Shown here: positions 50,391 through 57,550 of the stretch, piece after piece
Numbering within the stretch: the stretch's first letter is position 1
Layout: every line of letters begins with the position of its first letter
NCBI RefSeq assembly: GCF_002804205.1
Contig: NZ_CP024962.1
Coordinates: 248,001 to 312,000, forward strand
Direction of reading: 5' to 3'
DNA length: 64,000 nt
Origin: Entomoplasma freundtii
GTDB lineage: Bacteria > Bacillota_I > Bacilli_A > Mycoplasmatales > Mycoplasmataceae
Translations under genes and position numbers: made by a program
Notes under the pieces: model-generated
What the model was told of the DNA's origin: nothing
The model's database searches: none
What the model saw: only the letters and a program-made list of their open reading frames with translations

Positions 50391-51038
50391 CTACAGTCTT
50401 GCGTCTTTTGGGTTTGCTTTGACCGCCTCGCGCATAAACTCAAGTAGTTCACGTTTGGTTAAGTCAGCGAGAATTACTTCTTCAAGTTCTGGACGTCCAT
50501 GAAAAAATAAATCGCGAGTTTCGTTAGCATGTTTAATTAAGTCGCTGCGGGCTTCCTTAATTTCTAACGAACCATCGACATTTGCTCTCTCTGGCATTTC
50601 TAATTCCACAAAAGTGACTGACATGATTTCTTTAGGAACTTGTTTTGAAAGTTGATGAGCATATTTCTTTGTCATACGGTTCACATAGGAAAGGGCTTTT
50701 TTATGTTTCTTTGAAACTTTTGTTTCGACCTTTGACCAATTGTTTGGATCGATGGCATCTTTTAAGGTTTTTGAAGCTATAAACTTTGGTTTTGTTCGTG
50801 CAGAAATAATAATTTTTTCACCAGTTGCTGGATTAACCCCGACGCGTTTTTTTACATGTTCGGTTTTGAATTTACCAAAACCATGAATTTCCACTACATG
50901 TTTTTCGATTAAATCATTAGCGATTGAATCGAAAATGATATCAACAATTTCTTTAGCATCTTTTGCGGTCAAAAAATCTTTTTCCATCATCAGATCTTCC
51001 GCAAGCGTTTTTTTAGTTGATAGCGTGTCTCACTTCAT
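50391..51038 (-). CDS. HU/IHF-family DNA-binding protein with a long C-terminal module
   Basis: 215 residues from the ATG at 51038 (GGAAGG ribosome site), TGA-Trp at codon 3. Residues 1-100 are the HU fold: LTAKDAKEIVDIIFDSIAND, VEIHGFGKFKTEHVKKRVG, then the DNA-contact arm GVNPATGEKIIISARTKPKF and KTLKDAID. Ordinary HU ends near residue 92. About 110 more residues follow. Their last 90 (from MTKKYAHQL onwards) resemble the extra tail of ribosomal protein L20 encoded at 56.7-57.5 kb, including ER..VDGS and LTKRELLEFMRE. Whether this is the main nucleoid protein cannot be told. Confidence 0.88.
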
Positions 51039-51203
51039 ATTGCCTTCCTTTCTCGGGGTTTCACCTTATTTTAATTTTACCCACTTAAAAGTGAAACTCT
51101 GGGAATCGACCTTTTTTTCCAAAAAAAGCCATTGGGGGTGTTAGATTTGCAATTTTGTTGTTTTCAAGACCTAATAAAGGAGATTGAAAAAACCTAAATT
51201 TCT

Positions 51204-51338
51204 TTAGCTTTCACTCGAATAACGCTGGTCTAATTTTTTAATGAAATAGGTACGCAAGGATCAGACAAGGCCAAAAATAACGATAGTTAAGAGGCTTGAC
51301 CAAATTTTAGTGTAACTTTGAAAGGTCGCGCTAGTCAT
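51204..51338 (-). CDS. Tiny single-span membrane protein
   Basis: 44 residues, MTSATFQSYTKIWSSLLTIV then FGLVWSLRTYFIKKLDQRYS, with TGA read as Trp in the helix. One membrane span at about 13-30 followed by a positive-charged tail, so the C-terminus faces the cytoplasm. Ribosome site is weak; a -10-like GTAAAAT lies directly before the ATG, so a leaderless message is possible. No family recognised. Confidence 0.45.
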
Positions 51339-51704
51339 ATTTTACGGGTTTGTCAAAGCGCAGTTTGACTTATTTTTCAACAAAATTATAAGAAGACAAA
51401 AATGGGCTTAAAAATTAGTAAAAGCAAATAACTAAGTTAAAACATAAGTGGTTCTTTGGTAAAAGTAATAATTAAGCTTAATGATTAATTAAGATTAGGA
51501 TAAATGTAAAAATTAAATCGAGGCTAGTTATAAATATAAGCAACTCAAGTTATTTACTTTCTGTTTTAAGTTTTGGTGTGTTGCTCAAGGCTAACAACTT
51601 TTTGACACTTTAAATATCTTTATCTTTTCAAGACCGTTTTCACAAAATTAAAAGATAATTAGGTTGTAGTTTTTTAGCACGATTGCAAAAGGAGAAAAAC
51701 AAAA
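51339..51704. other. Intergenic region upstream of ridA
   Basis: 366 nt, AT-rich, with no coding frame above about 20 codons on either strand. TTGACA at about 51601 could be the -35 of ridA, but no clear -10 follows at 17 nt. I see no RNA gene or repeat. Confidence 0.5.
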
Positions 51705-52082
51705 ATGAAAATAATTGAAACTGATAAAGCGCCTAAGGCCGTGGGGCCTTATAGTCAAGCAATCCAACTCGAAAATGGTTTCCTCTATACGTCAGGACAA
51801 TTGGGTCTTAACCCTGAAACAATGAAAATGCCCGAAAAGGTAACAGACCAAGCTTGAAATGCTCTTGAAAATATCGATAATATTTTAATTGAAGCTGGTT
51901 ATACAAAAAATGATGTTGTTAAAACTTTGGTTTTATTAGCCGATATCAAAGATTTTGTGGAATGTAATAAAATCTATACTGAATATTTTGGGGACCACAA
52001 ACCAGCGCGAAGCGCCTTTCAAGTAGCCGCTTTACCACTCGGTGGCAAAATTGAAATTGAAGCAATTGCTTATAAAGAATAA
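51705..52082 (+). CDS. ridA: RidA/YjgF family reactive imine deaminase
   Basis: 125 residues, one TGA-Trp in QAWNALENID. Hydrolyses reactive enamines and imines released by PLP enzymes. Motifs: APKAVGPYSQAIQLENGFLYTSGQLGL at the start (shown here in part), the catalytic Arg in KPARSAFQVAALPLGG, and IEIEAIAYK at the end. The length fits the family (about 125). GGAG precedes the ATG. Stands alone between terminators. Confidence 0.94.
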
Positions 52083-52100
52083 TTGAAAATATTAATACGT

Positions 52101-52140
52101 ACAATAAAAAATATCAGAGTTTCCTGATATTTTTTATTGT
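52101..52140. terminator. Terminator after ridA
   Basis: ACAATAAAAAATATCAG and CTGATATTTTTTATTGT pair around 6 nt, 19 nt past the stop. Confidence 0.9.
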
Positions 52141-52444
52141 TAAATTTTTAAAAGTATTTTCTTTAAACTCTTTTTCCAGCCTTTCAAGGATTTGTAGAAT
52201 ATTTATTTTTCCCATAAAAACTATCTGGTTTTTATTATTTTGCTAACAGTTAATTATTTCTGAATTATTATATTAAAAGTTAAGAAAATATTGGCTATGA
52301 TTTCAGTGCTTTTACCCTTGGAAAACTCGATTATTAAGGTCTTTTAAAACTAAGGCGTTTCCAAGGAAGCAATGACTCCTCGTGGTGAAAATAAAATGAA
52401 ATATAATTTTATATTTTACTTAACATTATTGAGTTGGGAGAACA
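52141..52444 (+). promoter_or_regulatory. Leader region with inverted repeat
   Basis: 304 nt without a coding frame. It includes a 9-bp inverted repeat CCTTGGAAA (52316-52324) and TTTCCAAGG (52358-52366) around a 33-nt loop, then an AT-rich stretch and GGGAG before the next gene. It may be a structured leader or an operator; no match to a known class. Confidence 0.3.
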
Positions 52445-54259
52445 ATGGCGACGCAGATAATTTACAATCCATTAGCAGAGTATCAAAATAACTTAAAGCA
52501 AATTCATAATGACAATTTAACTAATTTTTTTGACAATTTAGTACAACAAAACCAAATTGACGAAAATTTGAACAAAAAAACTGTTGAAGATTTTTATCAT
52601 AATAAAAAGAGTTTGACATTAACTAATAAAAAGAAAGCCAATTTGGAAAAAGGTCGCTTGGCTTTGATTTTTTTAGCAATTATCTTTGGAATTGCTCCAT
52701 TAGTGGGGTGGTTTTTACTACGGACTAATGCGCAAGTTTTTCTTTGGGTTGGACTCATGGCTGGAGTGGGATTAATTGGCCTTGGACTGTCAGTTTATTG
52801 CATAGTTAAAAAAATCAAGCCGAAAATCCAAAATCTTCACTCACAATCAACAACTTTTGAAAGCAAAATGAATGATTTAGAAACTAATTGTTGGTCACAA
52901 TTATTGGGCTTGAACCAAAGTTATGATTGACAATTAACGACACGTTTATTAGAGCAAACCTTGCCGATTGTCAAATTTGATCCTTATTTAAAACTAGATA
53001 AATTTCAACATTTTTTAAACCATGGTTTACGGAATACTGATTTTGATGAAACTGTTATTGATCTTAAGAGTGGGGAGATTGCTACAAACCCCTTTATTTT
53101 CGTGGAGAAGTTACACCATAATTTAGGAATGCAAGCCTATTTTGGGTCTATCACTATTTCTTGAACCGAAACTTATACTGACCATGAAGGAAAAACTCAA
53201 ACCCGAATCCAAACTCAAGTTTTAACAGCTTCTGTCGAACAACCTTGTCCTTTTTATAAAACTACTAAAGAACTCTTTTTTAGTCATGAAGTAGCTCCGA
53301 AACTAAATTTTCAACGTGAACCATCCAATTTGGTCCATAGTAATGAGCGAGATATTACAAAGGCTATGAAAAAACTTGATAATAAAGCCCGAAAGGCGAT
53401 TAAAGACGGTAACGATTTTAATTTAATGAATAATAGTGAATTTGAAGTTTTATTTAATGCGTTAAATCGGAATGATGAAATTCAATTCCGATTCCTCTTT
53501 TCTGATCTTGCTCAAAAGCAGTTAGAAGATTTTCTTAAGAATCCGGATTATCCGCATGCCGATGAATTTTATTGGTGAAAAAATCAAGAATTATCTTGCT
53601 TAATGGGTACCTATTTGACCAATGTGTCATGAGATTTTAATCCTCAAAAATACCAAAATTTTGATTTAGCAGCCGCTCGTCAAAATTTTATTAGTAGCAA
53701 TATGACTTTCTTTGAAAATTTTTATTTAGCAATTACACCCCTTTTGGCAACTCCACTTTTGCAAGAACCGCGTACTATAGAATATCCGACGTTAGCGACA
53801 CCAGAATATTTAGCTTCTTGGCAAAAAGAGGCTATTGTAGCTAATTTTGGTAATGAGTTAATTCACCCATTATCACGAACCAATAACATTTTTAAAATTG
53901 TGACCAATAATGCTGCCAATGGCTTAGAACAACTAATGGTTAAGGCCTTTGGTTACCAAACCATTGAACGCGTGACTTATATTCCGGTTTTAGGTGGCGA
54001 TGGTTATTGGCATAATGTGCCGGTCTGATGGACGGAGTATATTCCCGTTGCTCAAGAATCGGCAGTATTAGTTAAAAACGTCGAGGATTTAGCAATGCAA
54101 AAACGTCTCCAAAACCCTGATAATGCAGCGTTAAATGCTTATCTTGAAAAGCAGAACTTAGAAAGAAAAGATATTCATTTATTTGATAATATAATTAGTT
54201 TTAAGCATGAAACTGGTACATTTGATGAACACCAAACTTTTTGAAATGCGTTAAACTAA
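52445..54259 (+). CDS. Large membrane-anchored protein paired with LemA
   Basis: 604 residues with TGA-Trp at 52928, 53162, 53576, 53630, 54026 and 54242. An N-terminal helical stretch of about 70 residues is followed by two membrane helices at about 72-92 and 98-120, then about 480 soluble residues. Regions such as SWTETYTDHEGKTQTR and PVWWTEYIPVAQE recur in form, with many aromatic residues. I do not recognise the family with certainty; proteins of the DUF3137 type often lie next to lemA and have a similar plan. GGGAG precedes the ATG. lemA follows after 39 nt. Confidence 0.75.
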
Positions 54260-54298
54260 GGTTTAAACTTAAGATAATTTAATAAAAGGAGAAAAATA

Positions 54299-54961
54299 AT
54301 GGCAAATCGACTTGACGAAATGACCGGACCAGTTTCGGAAACTGGCAAAAATATTAATGTAATTAACAAACAACTTAAAATTGAAGTAGGCAAGGGCTCA
54401 AAAATTTTTCAAATTGTTTTATGGCTTTTTATTCTTCCAGGTTTTATTTTTTGAATTAAAAAAATCAAAGCCAAAAACTATTTAGACCGCTTAGAACAAA
54501 AAATTCAGGCAGCCGCTTCACAATATGATAATTATTTAGACCAACGGGTACAAATTTTAGAAAATATCGCTGGCCTTTTAAAACAATCAATCAATATTGA
54601 TAAAGATATTTTCACTTCTTTGGCTGCTTTGCGTTCAGGCACTAAATTGAATGATCAAAAACGTAATGAGCTAGCGACTGAAGTTGACTTAGTGAATACA
54701 AAGTTAAATGTGGCTTTTGAAAACTATCCTGAATTAAAATCGCAAGATACTGTTTTAGCAGCCATGAAACAAAACGATTATACGCAAAGAGAAATCTCAG
54801 CTTCACGTAGTAATTACAATGATTTTGTAAGTCGTTGAAACCAAGATATCCAAGTTTGACCAACATACAAAATTGTGGCTGCCAAAAATGGTTTTACCAC
54901 TCGTATTCCGTTTACAGCATCACAAGAAACTAAAACTAAAGCTCAAAGTACCTTCTTTTAG
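54299..54961 (+). CDS. lemA: LemA family protein
   Basis: 220 residues, TGA-Trp in GFIFWIKK, SRWNQDIQVW. LemA proteins have an extracellular N-terminus, one membrane helix and a helical domain; their role is unknown. Here the helix is at about 36-53 after a 35-residue polar start, later than the usual 1-25. The domain then has YDNYLDQRVQILENIAGLL, FENYPELKSQD and ISASRSNYNDFVSRWN, matching the family's (D/N)Y-x-R pattern. AAAGGAG precedes the ATG. A strong terminator follows. Confidence 0.88.
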
Positions 54962-55055
54962 AACTTTATAGATAAATTTTAAAACCCTAAAACCTTAGTC
55001 TTCCCCTTATTATTAGTAATCAATTGACATTTAGCTTTTAATAAAGTTAAACTTC

Positions 55056-55103
55056 AAAAATAGAAAACCTGGCTTTTTATAGCAGAGCAGGTTTTCTATT
55101 TTT
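55056..55103. terminator. Terminator after lemA
   Basis: AAAAATAGAAAACCTG and CAGGTTTTCTATTTTT (16 bp) around a 16-nt loop. Confidence 0.92.
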
Positions 55104-55150
55104 CTTGGTTACTTTTCCAAATTTAGTTTTGGTTTGGAGCGAGGTTTATA

Positions 55151-55193
55151 AAAAACAAGACCCCATTATCTTGCAGTGACGAAGGGGCCTTGT
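55151..55193 (-). terminator. Terminator after the degenerate HNH-like gene
   Basis: On the minus strand CAAGGCCCC pairs with GGGGTCTTG (one mismatch) around a 19-nt loop, then six T. It lies about 23 nt past the stop. Confidence 0.75.
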
Positions 55194-55215
55194 AGTATTG
55201 AGTGATTAATAATTT

Positions 55216-55515
55216 CTAATTGTAACCTTTGACTCTATCACAATAACTATGCATTGCTTGATAATGTTCAGAATGTTCATGACTTTTATCAACATTATTG
55301 GGGCTATTGTGGGGTGCTGTAACATAACCAACAACCCAACTATAATCGCTTTGAGCTCCATAGTTTCGAGAATATAGACGCTTATCTCTAAATTGACATA
55401 AGCCATCAGGGCAAAAAGCTATCCCTGTCGGTTCGCCATCCTCTAACTGGCCACTTGAATTAACTCAAGCAATGCCTTTTTCTAGAAAAGTAATTTCTTT
55501 TTCCTGAGTAACCAT
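55216..55515 (-). CDS. Degenerate HNH-nuclease-like protein (copy 1)
   Basis: 99 residues, TGA-Trp at codon 17. Homologous to the HNH protein at 58.5 kb: both share GIA(F/Y)CP...C, then SD(Y/A)SWVV, and end with YQAMH(S/N)YC(D/N). The metal-binding Asp-His of the HNH motif (DH in copy 2) is replaced by Gly-Tyr here, so nuclease activity is probably lost or changed, although the frame is open and the ribosome site GGAGGTGAG strong. A hairpin AAACCCTAA/TTAGGATTT with a T-run sits just before the ribosome site and may attenuate it. Divergent from infC. Confidence 0.75.
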
Positions 55516-55650
55516 ACCAAATCTCACCTCCTTTCAGAAGGATAAAAAGAAATCCTAATTTATGGTTAGGGTTTATTTTAAGACTGGTAGTTAGGAAAAG
55601 TAATTTCTTTTTTTCATAAAATTATCCATTTTATTTATTAAGCAAATTGC

Positions 55651-55678
55651 TTGATTTCTCGATTAATTCAGATAAAAT
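55651..55678 (+). promoter_or_regulatory. Promoter of the infC-rpmI-rplT operon
   Basis: TTGATT at 55651-55656 and TAAAAT at 55673-55678 with a 16-nt spacer. The predicted transcript begins near 55685, about 210 nt before infC. Confidence 0.6.
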
Positions 55679-55684
55679 AATAAA

Positions 55685-55897
55685 GTTAAAAAAAGAAGCA
55701 CAAGCTCACCGTCCGAATCATTTGACTTCATCTGACTTCAAAGCGGTCACTAAACCAATTTATTTATTTAGAATTTAATGAATAGACTAAAGGTGTGCTT
55801 TCTTTTGTTTGACGGCACACTTTTTATTTTGTTTTCTAAAAATTCTCAAGGATAATAAAAAACAAAATAATTTCAAAAACAAGGAGAAGGTTTATAG
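55685..55897 (+). promoter_or_regulatory. L20-type leader with attenuator upstream of infC
   Basis: The leader holds a terminator GTGTGC (55793-55798) / GCACAC (55815-55820) followed by TTTTTA. An upstream segment AAGCACA (55696-55702) is complementary to TGTGCTT (55794-55800), so it can form an antiterminator that breaks the terminator. In Firmicutes this operon is controlled by L20 through transcription attenuation of this kind. The sequence shows the two exclusive hairpins; control by L20 here is inferred from the family. Confidence 0.72.
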
Positions 55898-56455
55898 ATG
55901 GATCAAAACAACCAATCAAGAAATCAACGCTTTGCCCGAAATCATCATCAAGATCCGATTAATGGGTATATTCGCGCTCGTCAAATCTTGGTAATCGACC
56001 AATTTGGAAACAAACGTGGCGTTTTATCTAAGGGTGAAGCGATTGGTTTGGCTGAACGAGCTGGCTTAGATTTAATGCAGGTCGGAACGCAACCTGATGG
56101 TACTGCAATTGCAAAAATTGTAGATTATGGAAAGTATAAATACGAGCAACAAAAGAAACAAAAAGAAGCTAAGAAAAACCAAGTCAAAACTGAAAATAAA
56201 GAAATTCGTTTAACAGTTAACATTGGTGAACATGACTTAGATACCAAAGCTCGTAAAGCACGAGAATTCTTAGAAGAAGGTAATCGTGTCAAGATTTCTT
56301 TAAAATTCCGTGGTCGTGAAATTACCTACCTTGATTTAGGGAAAGCGACTTTGGAACGTTTCTATAAGAAAATTGAGGATATTGCCAAAATTGAAAAAGA
56401 AGCGAAACTAAACACACGTTTTCTAGACATGTATGTCGTGCCTAAGAAAAACTAA
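55898..56455 (+). CDS. infC: Translation initiation factor IF-3
   Basis: 185 residues. Keeps ribosomal subunits apart and checks the initiator tRNA. The N-terminal domain includes INGYIRARQILVIDQFGNK, LSKGEAIGLAERAGLDLMQV; the linker is Lys/Gln-rich (YEQQKKQKEAKKNQV); the C-terminal domain has EIRLTVNIGEHDLDTKARKA and VKISLKFRGREITYLDLG. About 20 extra polar residues at the N-terminus. AAGGAGAAGG precedes an ATG, not the rare AUU used in enteric bacteria. First gene of the operon. Confidence 0.96.
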   Translation: MDQNNQSRNQRFARNHHQDPINGYIRARQILVIDQFGNKRGVLSKGEAIGLAERAGLDLMQVGTQPDGTAIAKIVDYGKYKYEQQKKQKEAKKNQVKTENKEIRLTVNIGEHDLDTKARKAREFLEEGNRVKISLKFRGREITYLDLGKATLERFYKKIEDIAKIEKEAKLNTRFLDMYVVPKKN

Positions 56456-56494
56456 TTAAAACTAGTTACTAGTGAAAACAGAGGAGAGAAGAAG

Positions 56495-56689
56495 ATGCCA
56501 AAAATGAAAACAAAACGCGCGTTAGCAAAACGCGTGAAAAAAACTGGGTCAGGGAAACTAAAACGTGGTCATGCTTACCGCTCACATTTAGCTTTAGGAA
56601 AAACCACTAAACAAAAACGTCAACTAGAAAAAAGCACTGTGGTTTCAAAAAGTGATGAAAAACGTCTAAAAGGACTATTACAAAATTAA
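56495..56689 (+). CDS. rpmI: 50S ribosomal protein L35
   Basis: 64 residues starting [20 protein letters not shown], then [20 protein letters not shown] and KRLKGLLQN; the usual L35 length and pattern. Basic protein of the large subunit, often required for normal regulation of this operon. GAGGAGAG precedes the ATG. Lies between infC and rplT with 39- and 27-nt gaps. Confidence 0.96.
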
Positions 56690-56716
56690 TTGATAAAGGA
56701 TTAGGAGAGAAAACCA

Positions 56717-57550
56717 ATGGCAAGAGTAAAATTTGGAAAAGTAACGCGTTCACGTCGTAAACGTTGAATTAAACGTGCAAAAGGATATTATGGTTTAAAA
56801 AAATCATCATATAAAAAGGCGCATGAACAAGTAGTTCGCTCAATGGCCTATGCCTTTGTCGGACGTAAAGAGAAAAAACGTGATTTCCGTAAACTATGAA
56901 TCGCACGTATCAACGCCGCAGTTCGCCCTTATGGACTATCATATTCACGTTTCATGCACGGTTTAAAAGTCGCTAACGTTGACGTCAACCGTAAAATGCT
57001 ATCAGAATTAGCAATTAACAACCCACAAGACTTTGAAAAAATGGTTAATTTAGTGCAAACTACTTTAAACCAACCAGTAACCCACCCGGACTTAATGCCA
57101 ATTAAAGTCCCAACAGCAAAAGTAACTACTAATACTAAAGTAGTGACTAGTGAAGTAGCGGTTGAACCAACTAAAGTAATCGAAACAGTTAAAGCAGTTG
57201 AAATGGTTGAAGTGACTGAAGTAGTGGACAACGAAAACCAAGAAGATTACTTGGCAACAATCGAAACTAAATATGCGCAAGAACTAAAACCAAAACGTAC
57301 TAAAAAAACTACTGATGAAGCCGAAGCACCAAAAGTTGCTAAAGCAGACTTAAGTTTGGAAGAACGTTCAACTTTAGATGGATCAGACAAAATTAGTGAA
57401 AGTCGTGATGAATTAGAAAAACACGCCATGACCTTAAAAGCTAAATTACCAACTACTGAAAAAGCTTTATTAAAAGCGGATGTAAAAACAATGACCAAAA
57501 AAGAGATCATTAAATACATGCGTAAAGTTTCAAATAAATTAGCAAAATAA
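56717..57550 (+). CDS. rplT: 50S ribosomal protein L20 with a long C-terminal extension
   Basis: 277 residues, against 115-120 for ordinary L20. TGA-Trp at 56765 and 56897. Residues 1-120 are normal L20: [60 protein letters not shown]. Then come a Pro/Val/Thr/Glu-rich linker (about 121-190) and a module of about 85 residues ([12 protein letters not shown] to KLAK). The module resembles the tail of the HU-like protein at 50.4 kb. L20 normally represses this operon; the extension leaves that core intact. A decayed copy of the module's DNA lies at 59.16-59.28 kb. Confidence 0.93.

Follow-up and report, generated by a model that had tools for sequence, protein, structure and literature searches.

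Within the window analysed here, a stretch of 64,000 nucleotides of the Entomoplasma freundtii genome, an HU-like protein and ribosomal protein L20 each carry a C-terminal extension, and a preliminary description of this DNA claimed that the two extensions share a tail. The locus raises the question of why a nucleoid protein and a ribosomal protein should end alike. The genes were read with genetic code table 4 (TGA=Trp), and the positions given earlier for both proved correct.

50391..51038, minus strand: HU-like protein with C-terminal module, 215 aa (ORF under table 4; PF00216 E=1.3e-25)
50751..51017, minus strand: HU DNA-binding domain, residues 8-96 (Pfam match)
50637..50705, minus strand: KY-helix of the HU-like protein, residues 112-134, SYVNRMTKKYAHQL (motif alignment; AlphaFold2 helix, pLDDT 92-94)
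50415..50603, minus strand: module in the HU-like protein, residues ~146-208 (profile E=3.7e-24; AlphaFold2 helices)
55898..56455, plus strand: infC (IF3), first in the infC-rpmI-rplT operon (ORF order, matched in a relative)
56495..56689, plus strand: rpmI (L35) (ORF)
56717..57550, plus strand: bL20 with C-terminal extension and module, 277 aa (ORF, Pfam)
56717..57070, plus strand: L20 core, residues 1-118 (PF00453 E=7.8e-43)
57071..57244, plus strand: L20 linker, V/T/K/E-rich, fast-evolving, residues 119-176 (sequence; linker rate measured on S6 carriers)
57245..57304, plus strand: KY-helix of L20, residues 177-196 (motif alignment)
57350..57547, plus strand: module in L20, residues ~212-277 (profile E=2.0e-25; AlphaFold2)

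The identity of both proteins is clear. The HU-like protein matches PF00216 at 89.9 bits against a cut-off of 22.4; as in HU/IHF nucleoid proteins, its HU domain is genuine and has the canonical DNA-binding arm, and the tail is extra. A second, ordinary HU of 93 aa is encoded elsewhere in the genome (G000:C1:663293). L20 is the only genomic match to the bL20 models (PF00453, TIGR01032; 145.4 bits against 30.8), lies in the order infC-rpmI-rplT, and its Pfam domain match spans residues 3-108. The non-carrier L20 proteins listed in the order are 115-135 aa long, with a single exception of 221 aa. Two NCBIfam models, NF051450 (L20, sunset domain variant) and NF011109 (L20/unknown domain fusion), also describe L20 with an extra C-terminal domain. 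The window L20 matches them over positions 1-186 of 219 and 1-119 of 232, respectively, leaving the extra domains unmatched, and membership in NF011109 and NF051450 was rejected on score (151.6 versus 187 and 123.3 versus 375 bits, respectively).

The gapless block shared by the two tails, from ER..DGS to MRE/MRK, contains the 18 identities counted originally but spans 55 residues rather than 57 or so. A gapped local alignment of the tails scored 102 (BLOSUM62). Shuffled sequences, proposed in the preliminary description as a control, stayed below this score: 5,000 shuffles of each tail (10,000 in total) gave a mean of 36, a standard deviation of 6.2 and maxima of 68 and 66, so the common tail holds. 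BLASTP aligned the tails at E=1e-9 with 32% identity over 97 residues, an alignment that takes in the upstream KKYAHQL/TKYAQEL helix, where likeness had also been noticed. Structure prediction, likewise among the suggested checks, was made with AlphaFold2, which confidently gives four helices in both tails: in the 71-residue L20 segment at positions 8-15, 24-36, 43-47 and 55-70 (mean pLDDT 92.5), and in the same order in the HU-like tail (mean pLDDT 84.3). The remaining check, a profile search for further carriers, returned 53 copies in 17 genomes, four of them in the E. freundtii genome itself. Chance similarity is excluded by the shuffles, the profile E-values and the fold, a two-copy duplication limited to the window by the 53 copies, and a simple basic tail by the acidic, well-folded core of the HU copy. 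As judged from sequence and predicted fold, the two tails are homologous.

The module comprises ~60 residues with the signature R-D-G-S..I.E..L.K ... L..(M/L)TK.E, and seven positions (D15, G16, S17, L27, T54, K55 and E57) are invariant in 53/53 copies. The family is defined by this signature, the four helices and, for intact copies, a profile E<1e-15; both window copies belong to it (E=2.0e-25 for L20 and 3.7e-24 for the HU-like protein, with AlphaFold2 helices). The core carries a net charge between -5 (HU) and +4 (L20), which, together with the invariant D, K and E, fits a specific protein interface better than charge-driven nucleic-acid binding. The polar residues among those conserved may have a structural role, as caps. 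Searches of Pfam and NCBIfam with the module gave nothing above cut-off, the nearest family being a sub-threshold Rho_N, and Foldseek comparison of both models with the PDB gave no match at E<=0.001, very small helical domains being hard for this program. Sequence matches in the PDB to caspase-3 and histone doublets (E 0.015-0.1) were partial, overlapped single helices and were judged to be chance. The literature searched contained no account of such a module, and the initial statement that no described domain resembles it is borne out for Pfam, NCBIfam and the PDB as searched. Thus, the module constitutes a previously undescribed, conserved family, predicted to be helical, that is absent from the domain libraries searched.

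All 53 copies fall within one Mollicute family, in Williamsoniiplasma, Mesoplasma, close relatives and Spiroplasma sp. TIUS-1; members of this small group lack a cell wall and mostly live in association with insects. Elsewhere in the order the profile gave no match, a scan of a public genome collection recovered the same clade and nothing beyond, and the viral contigs scanned contained no module. Four other genomes (G035, G068, G316 and G497) gave matches at E of roughly 1e-4 to 8e-4 that were judged false, as they span some 20-45 of the 71 positions; in three of the four they are repeated short ORFs, and the G497 match lies inside an ArsC/Spx-like protein.

The carriers are the ribosomal proteins L20, S6, S16 and S5, the HU-like protein, PTS EIIBC, an APC permease, FtsH and two-TM membrane proteins, with membrane proteins making up half or more. 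A ribosomal carrier is present in 17/17 carrier genomes, although the protein that bears the module differs, and in four of them (G022, G011, G018 and G031) one ribosomal protein is the sole carrier detected. In lucivorax, L20, S6, a PTS protein and three TM proteins bear the module. In E. freundtii, L20 is tailed, and S6, with an N-rich end, and S16, with a short frame, gave no module match in the profile search, by which very diverged copies could be missed. The module is usually reached through a long flexible linker and preceded by a short amphipathic KY-helix, an upstream element conserved in the motif alignment and absent from some carriers (the TM-module-HU proteins, the PTS of g9 and APC).

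HU and the module recur together. Their order within a protein varies, with at least three arrangements (HU-module, TM-HU-module and TM-module-HU), and relatives possess membrane-anchored HU proteins too. One two-TM anchor family, with 18 intact copies, carries HU in 13, the module in three, both in two, and no other cargo; the charge pattern of these anchors places the cargo in the cytoplasm.

Among S6 carriers of seven Mesoplasma genomes, dN/dS is 0.07 for the module, 0.04 for the KY-helix and 0.05 for the S6 domain, compared with 0.44-1.14 for the linkers. The module and KY-helix match the S6 domain in strength of purifying selection; the linkers do not. Copying between genes is also visible: in TIUS-1 the L20 and S5 genes have a common 3' end of 759 nt at 94% identity, a recent copy that shows how the tail spreads, and in G003 two PTS genes have 453 nt in common at 90%. 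From these copies, spread of the module between genes can be taken as proven. Of the earlier suggestion of a domain spreading between basic nucleic-acid-binding proteins, the spreading stands, given carriage by four ribosomal proteins, HU, PTS EIIBC, APC, FtsH and anchors; the restriction to such binders does not, because membrane proteins account for at least half of the carriers.

The identity of the carriers suggests well a shared partner or tethering role. We hypothesize that the module binds protein (another copy of itself, the KY-helix or a single receptor); carriers would thereby meet one another or gather at one shared partner. Ribosomes would be held via L20, S6, S16 or S5, the nucleoid via HU, and the membrane via transporters, FtsH and the dedicated two-TM anchors, keeping the three close. 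We give even chances to such a docking module linking ribosome, nucleoid and membrane. That ribosomal carriage is kept while its site moves is more in keeping with a tag than with an extension that binds rRNA locally. Several genomes have one detected carrier, so the joining of different carriers can be at most part of the function; a sole ribosomal carrier argues for a non-carrier partner or for ribosome-ribosome linking. The fuller proposal is somewhat less probable than not: that a near-minimal lineage evolved a dedicated tether, in which module and KY-helix join ribosomes to the nucleoid (HU) and membrane (anchors, PTS, permease) so that gene expression is organised at the membrane, and which was tagged afresh onto any available ribosomal protein.

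The module could instead be a nucleic-acid-binding helix-extended-helix of the Rho_N/SAP type, gripping mRNA, rRNA or nucleoid DNA on ribosomes and replacing HU as the DNA hook on membrane proteins. Its residues 29-68 weakly match Rho_N (PF07498) 5-40 (helix, extended loop, TK.EL helix), a likeness of the second half that keeps nucleic-acid binding in play. Rho_N is matched by more members than any other Pfam family (7/32 at E<=1), most carriers are nucleic-acid-associated or HU-bearing, and since anchors bear HU or the module alternatively, the module could do HU's job of binding DNA. However, even the best member (23.4 bits, E=5.9e-5) remains under the Pfam cut-off of 24.9 bits, and Foldseek, for which small helical domains are hard, returned no SAP/Rho_N structure. 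Unlike Rho_N, the module is confined to one Mollicute family and has an invariant extra N-terminal R..DGS..I.E helix-turn. Given also the core charge of -5 in the HU copy, the invariant D and E, and the redundancy that HU plus module in two proteins would imply, we regard this reading as rather unlikely.

A function local to the ribosome, in which the extension stabilises assembly or dimerises or hibernates ribosomes, the remaining carriers having arisen later as by-products, would account for the ribosomal carrier in every genome, alone in several, and has a parallel in the structured extensions of Mycoplasma pneumoniae S6, L22 and L29 (PMC9534751). It is distinctly unlikely, as the carrier shifts between lineages and across both subunits on long free linkers, and the membrane and HU carriers are numerous, with modules still conserved. 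Least probable is selfish or neutral spread, with 3' ends recombined between genes and a tail that does little. The TIUS-1 and G003 copies agree with it, as do degenerate and broken modules (APC, G027 652663), but it is already strongly disfavoured by the low module dN/dS, the seven invariant residues, a tailed ribosomal protein in all carrier genomes and non-random carriers, the anchor cargo being HU or module only.

The long C-terminal extensions of M. pneumoniae S6, L22 and L29, some structured and of largely elusive function, were described singly for each protein (PMC9534751), whereas here one homologous folded module occurs on four ribosomal and several non-ribosomal proteins. A table in Grosjean et al. 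marks some Mollicute genes as 'fusion' (PMC4014445). The present finding adds a conserved protein family missing from the domain libraries searched and shows repeated 'tagging' of ribosomes through 3'-end recombination.

The relative placement of ribosomes, chromosome and membrane within a bacterial cell has long been a question, and the usual answers are crowding and the coupling of transcription, translation and membrane insertion. If proteins of all three bear one dedicated module, such organisation would become genetically testable. Mesoplasma florum, a near-minimal model that is not pathogenic, apparently has one gene (S6) with the module and is hence suitable for such tests.

Two genes of the window (bases 248001-312000 of the single 838,114-base contig of the genome), both read with TGA as tryptophan, encode proteins extended beyond their Pfam domains:

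50391-51038, minus strand: HU-like protein, 215 aa, HU domain at residues 8-96
56717-57550, plus strand: ribosomal protein L20, 277 aa, L20 domain at residues 3-108

Neither tail matches Pfam above the cut-off. The likeness of the tails that the preliminary description had claimed is beyond chance, with an alignment score of 102 against a maximum of 68 among 10,000 shuffled sequences (5,000 per tail) and a BLASTP E-value of 1e-9. The 18 identities of its gapless block were borne out, over 55 rather than about 57 positions, and the upstream similarity was confirmed, with the short helix KKYAHQL (HU-like) / TKYAQEL (L20), hereafter the KY-helix, also covered. AlphaFold2 predicted the same helix series in both tails, neither mostly disordered: helices 8-15, 24-36, 43-47 and 55-70 in the L20 module (mean pLDDT 92.5, pTM 0.78), and a long confident KY-helix followed by a like series in the HU tail (84.3 and 0.78). 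No match to the module was found in the PDB by fold or by sequence.

When the HU-like protein was used as query in 60 relatives, many other ORFs were matched through the tail alone, and their alignment yielded a module profile. The further carriers that the preliminary description had anticipated were thereby found: 53 copies in 17 genomes, four of them in E. freundtii (L20, E=2e-25; HU, 4e-24; a 957-aa PTS EIIC-EIIB protein, 2e-24; and a degenerate C-terminal copy in an APC-type permease, 1e-5). Among the relatives, carriers comprise L20, S6, S16, S5, PTS EIIC proteins, FtsH, APC permease and small two-TM proteins. Searching 320 genomes from the order and 392 from the phylum gave no convincing copy outside the family. 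In an RpoB tree, which excludes carrier G022 (no RpoB match), 15 carrier genomes fall in one clade of Williamsoniiplasma and Mesoplasma together with the 'Acholeplasma' multilocale and M. photuris lineages; its sister group, probably the Mycoides group, lacks the module. Spiroplasma sp. TIUS-1 is an outlying carrier whose sister (G012) lacks the module, which requires transfer or repeated loss. In the draft assembly of A. multilocale, apparent frameshifts interrupt the S16 (L055) and PTS (L119) carriers.

Each of the 17 carrier genomes places the module on one or more ribosomal proteins, though not always the same one: S6 in 7/7 Mesoplasma genomes; L20 in Williamsoniiplasma, including E. freundtii, with S6 as well in three of the other genomes; L20 and S6 in G004; S16 in three genomes of group g9; L20 in M. 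photuris; L20 and S5 in TIUS-1. L20 measures 279-390 aa in carriers versus 115-135 aa in the listed non-carriers of the order, except G089 of another family (G089:C6:135599-135916), whose 221-aa L20 has a different extra domain and no module match. The S6 of E. freundtii (L163, G000:C1:816800-818400) has no module; it has an N/G/T-rich low-complexity end where its congeners have the module.

The proposal that the domain spreads held up, beyond the basic nucleic-acid-binding proteins that it named. In TIUS-1, the final 759 nt of the L20 (L057) and S5 (L058) genes are 94.5% identical, exactly up to both stop codons, the mark of a recent tail copy between two ribosomal protein genes; in G003, two PTS genes share 453 nt at 90%. 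Judged from these sequences, the tail moves through 3'-end copying. In W. lucivorax and G003, TM genes with the module directly adjoin rplT.

The module is under strong constraint. D15, G16, S17, L27, T54, K55 and E57 are invariant in 53/53 copies, and R11 and I20 identical in 52/53. Across seven Mesoplasma S6 genes, dN/dS is 0.05 for the S6 domain, 0.04 for the KY-helix and 0.07 for the module, versus 0.44 and 1.14 for linkers 1 and 2. Two constrained elements on free linkers have the sequence signature of a functional docking tail.

HU and the module are recurrent partners, found in three domain orders, one being the soluble HU-module protein of the window, because they occur jointly or alternatively on membrane anchors. 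In a two-TM anchor family of Mesoplasma and relatives, the C-terminal ends of the 18 intact members are HU (13), the module (3) or HU plus module (2), with no other cargo. A second anchor type has the order TM-module-HU, and related anchors of g9 carry HU or the module. From the N-terminal positive charge, the cargo is predicted to lie inside the cell. Membrane-anchored HU proteins (L221-L234, L235-L262; e.g. G022:C1:779269, G022:C1:503360), with two N-terminal TM helices, a long K/E/A-rich linker and a C-terminal HU domain, number at least one per Mesoplasma genome and apparently form an undescribed family.

Given the observed homology, constraint, carriers and copying, and the AlphaFold2-predicted fold, we give roughly even credence to the module acting, by protein docking, as a tether between ribosome, nucleoid and membrane. 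It would bind a partner, and the bound carriers would tether the three; since some genomes have a single carrier, that partner could be something other than a further carrier. The main rival, a Rho_N-like nucleic-acid binder, is suggested by Rho_N being the module's most frequent weak Pfam match, but seems doubtful, as those matches are all sub-threshold and the core of the HU copy is acidic. That the ribosome keeps the module while its site shifts would be expected of a tag more than of an extension binding rRNA locally. A ribosome-local role, which we consider improbable, and selfish spread, still more so, both explain less.

Ribosomal protein extensions are known in a Mollicute, M. pneumoniae (PMC9534751), and NCBIfam lists L20 fusions, but with other extra domains, which the L20 of the window does not match. 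The open-access literature searched describes neither the module, nor its sharing among ribosome, HU and membrane proteins, nor the anchors; with no Pfam match above cut-off and no PDB match, the statement that no such domain is known holds for these sources. Should the tethering reading fail, a new orphan domain family would remain.

Within the window, HNH-like copies lie on both sides of the infC-rpmI-rplT operon: a small HNH endonuclease gene (PF01844; 58502-58795, minus strand) downstream of rplT and a degenerate look-alike ORF without Pfam match (55216-55527, minus strand) upstream of infC. At 52445-54961 (plus strand), a 604-aa membrane protein that matches no Pfam family is encoded, and after it LemA (PF04011).
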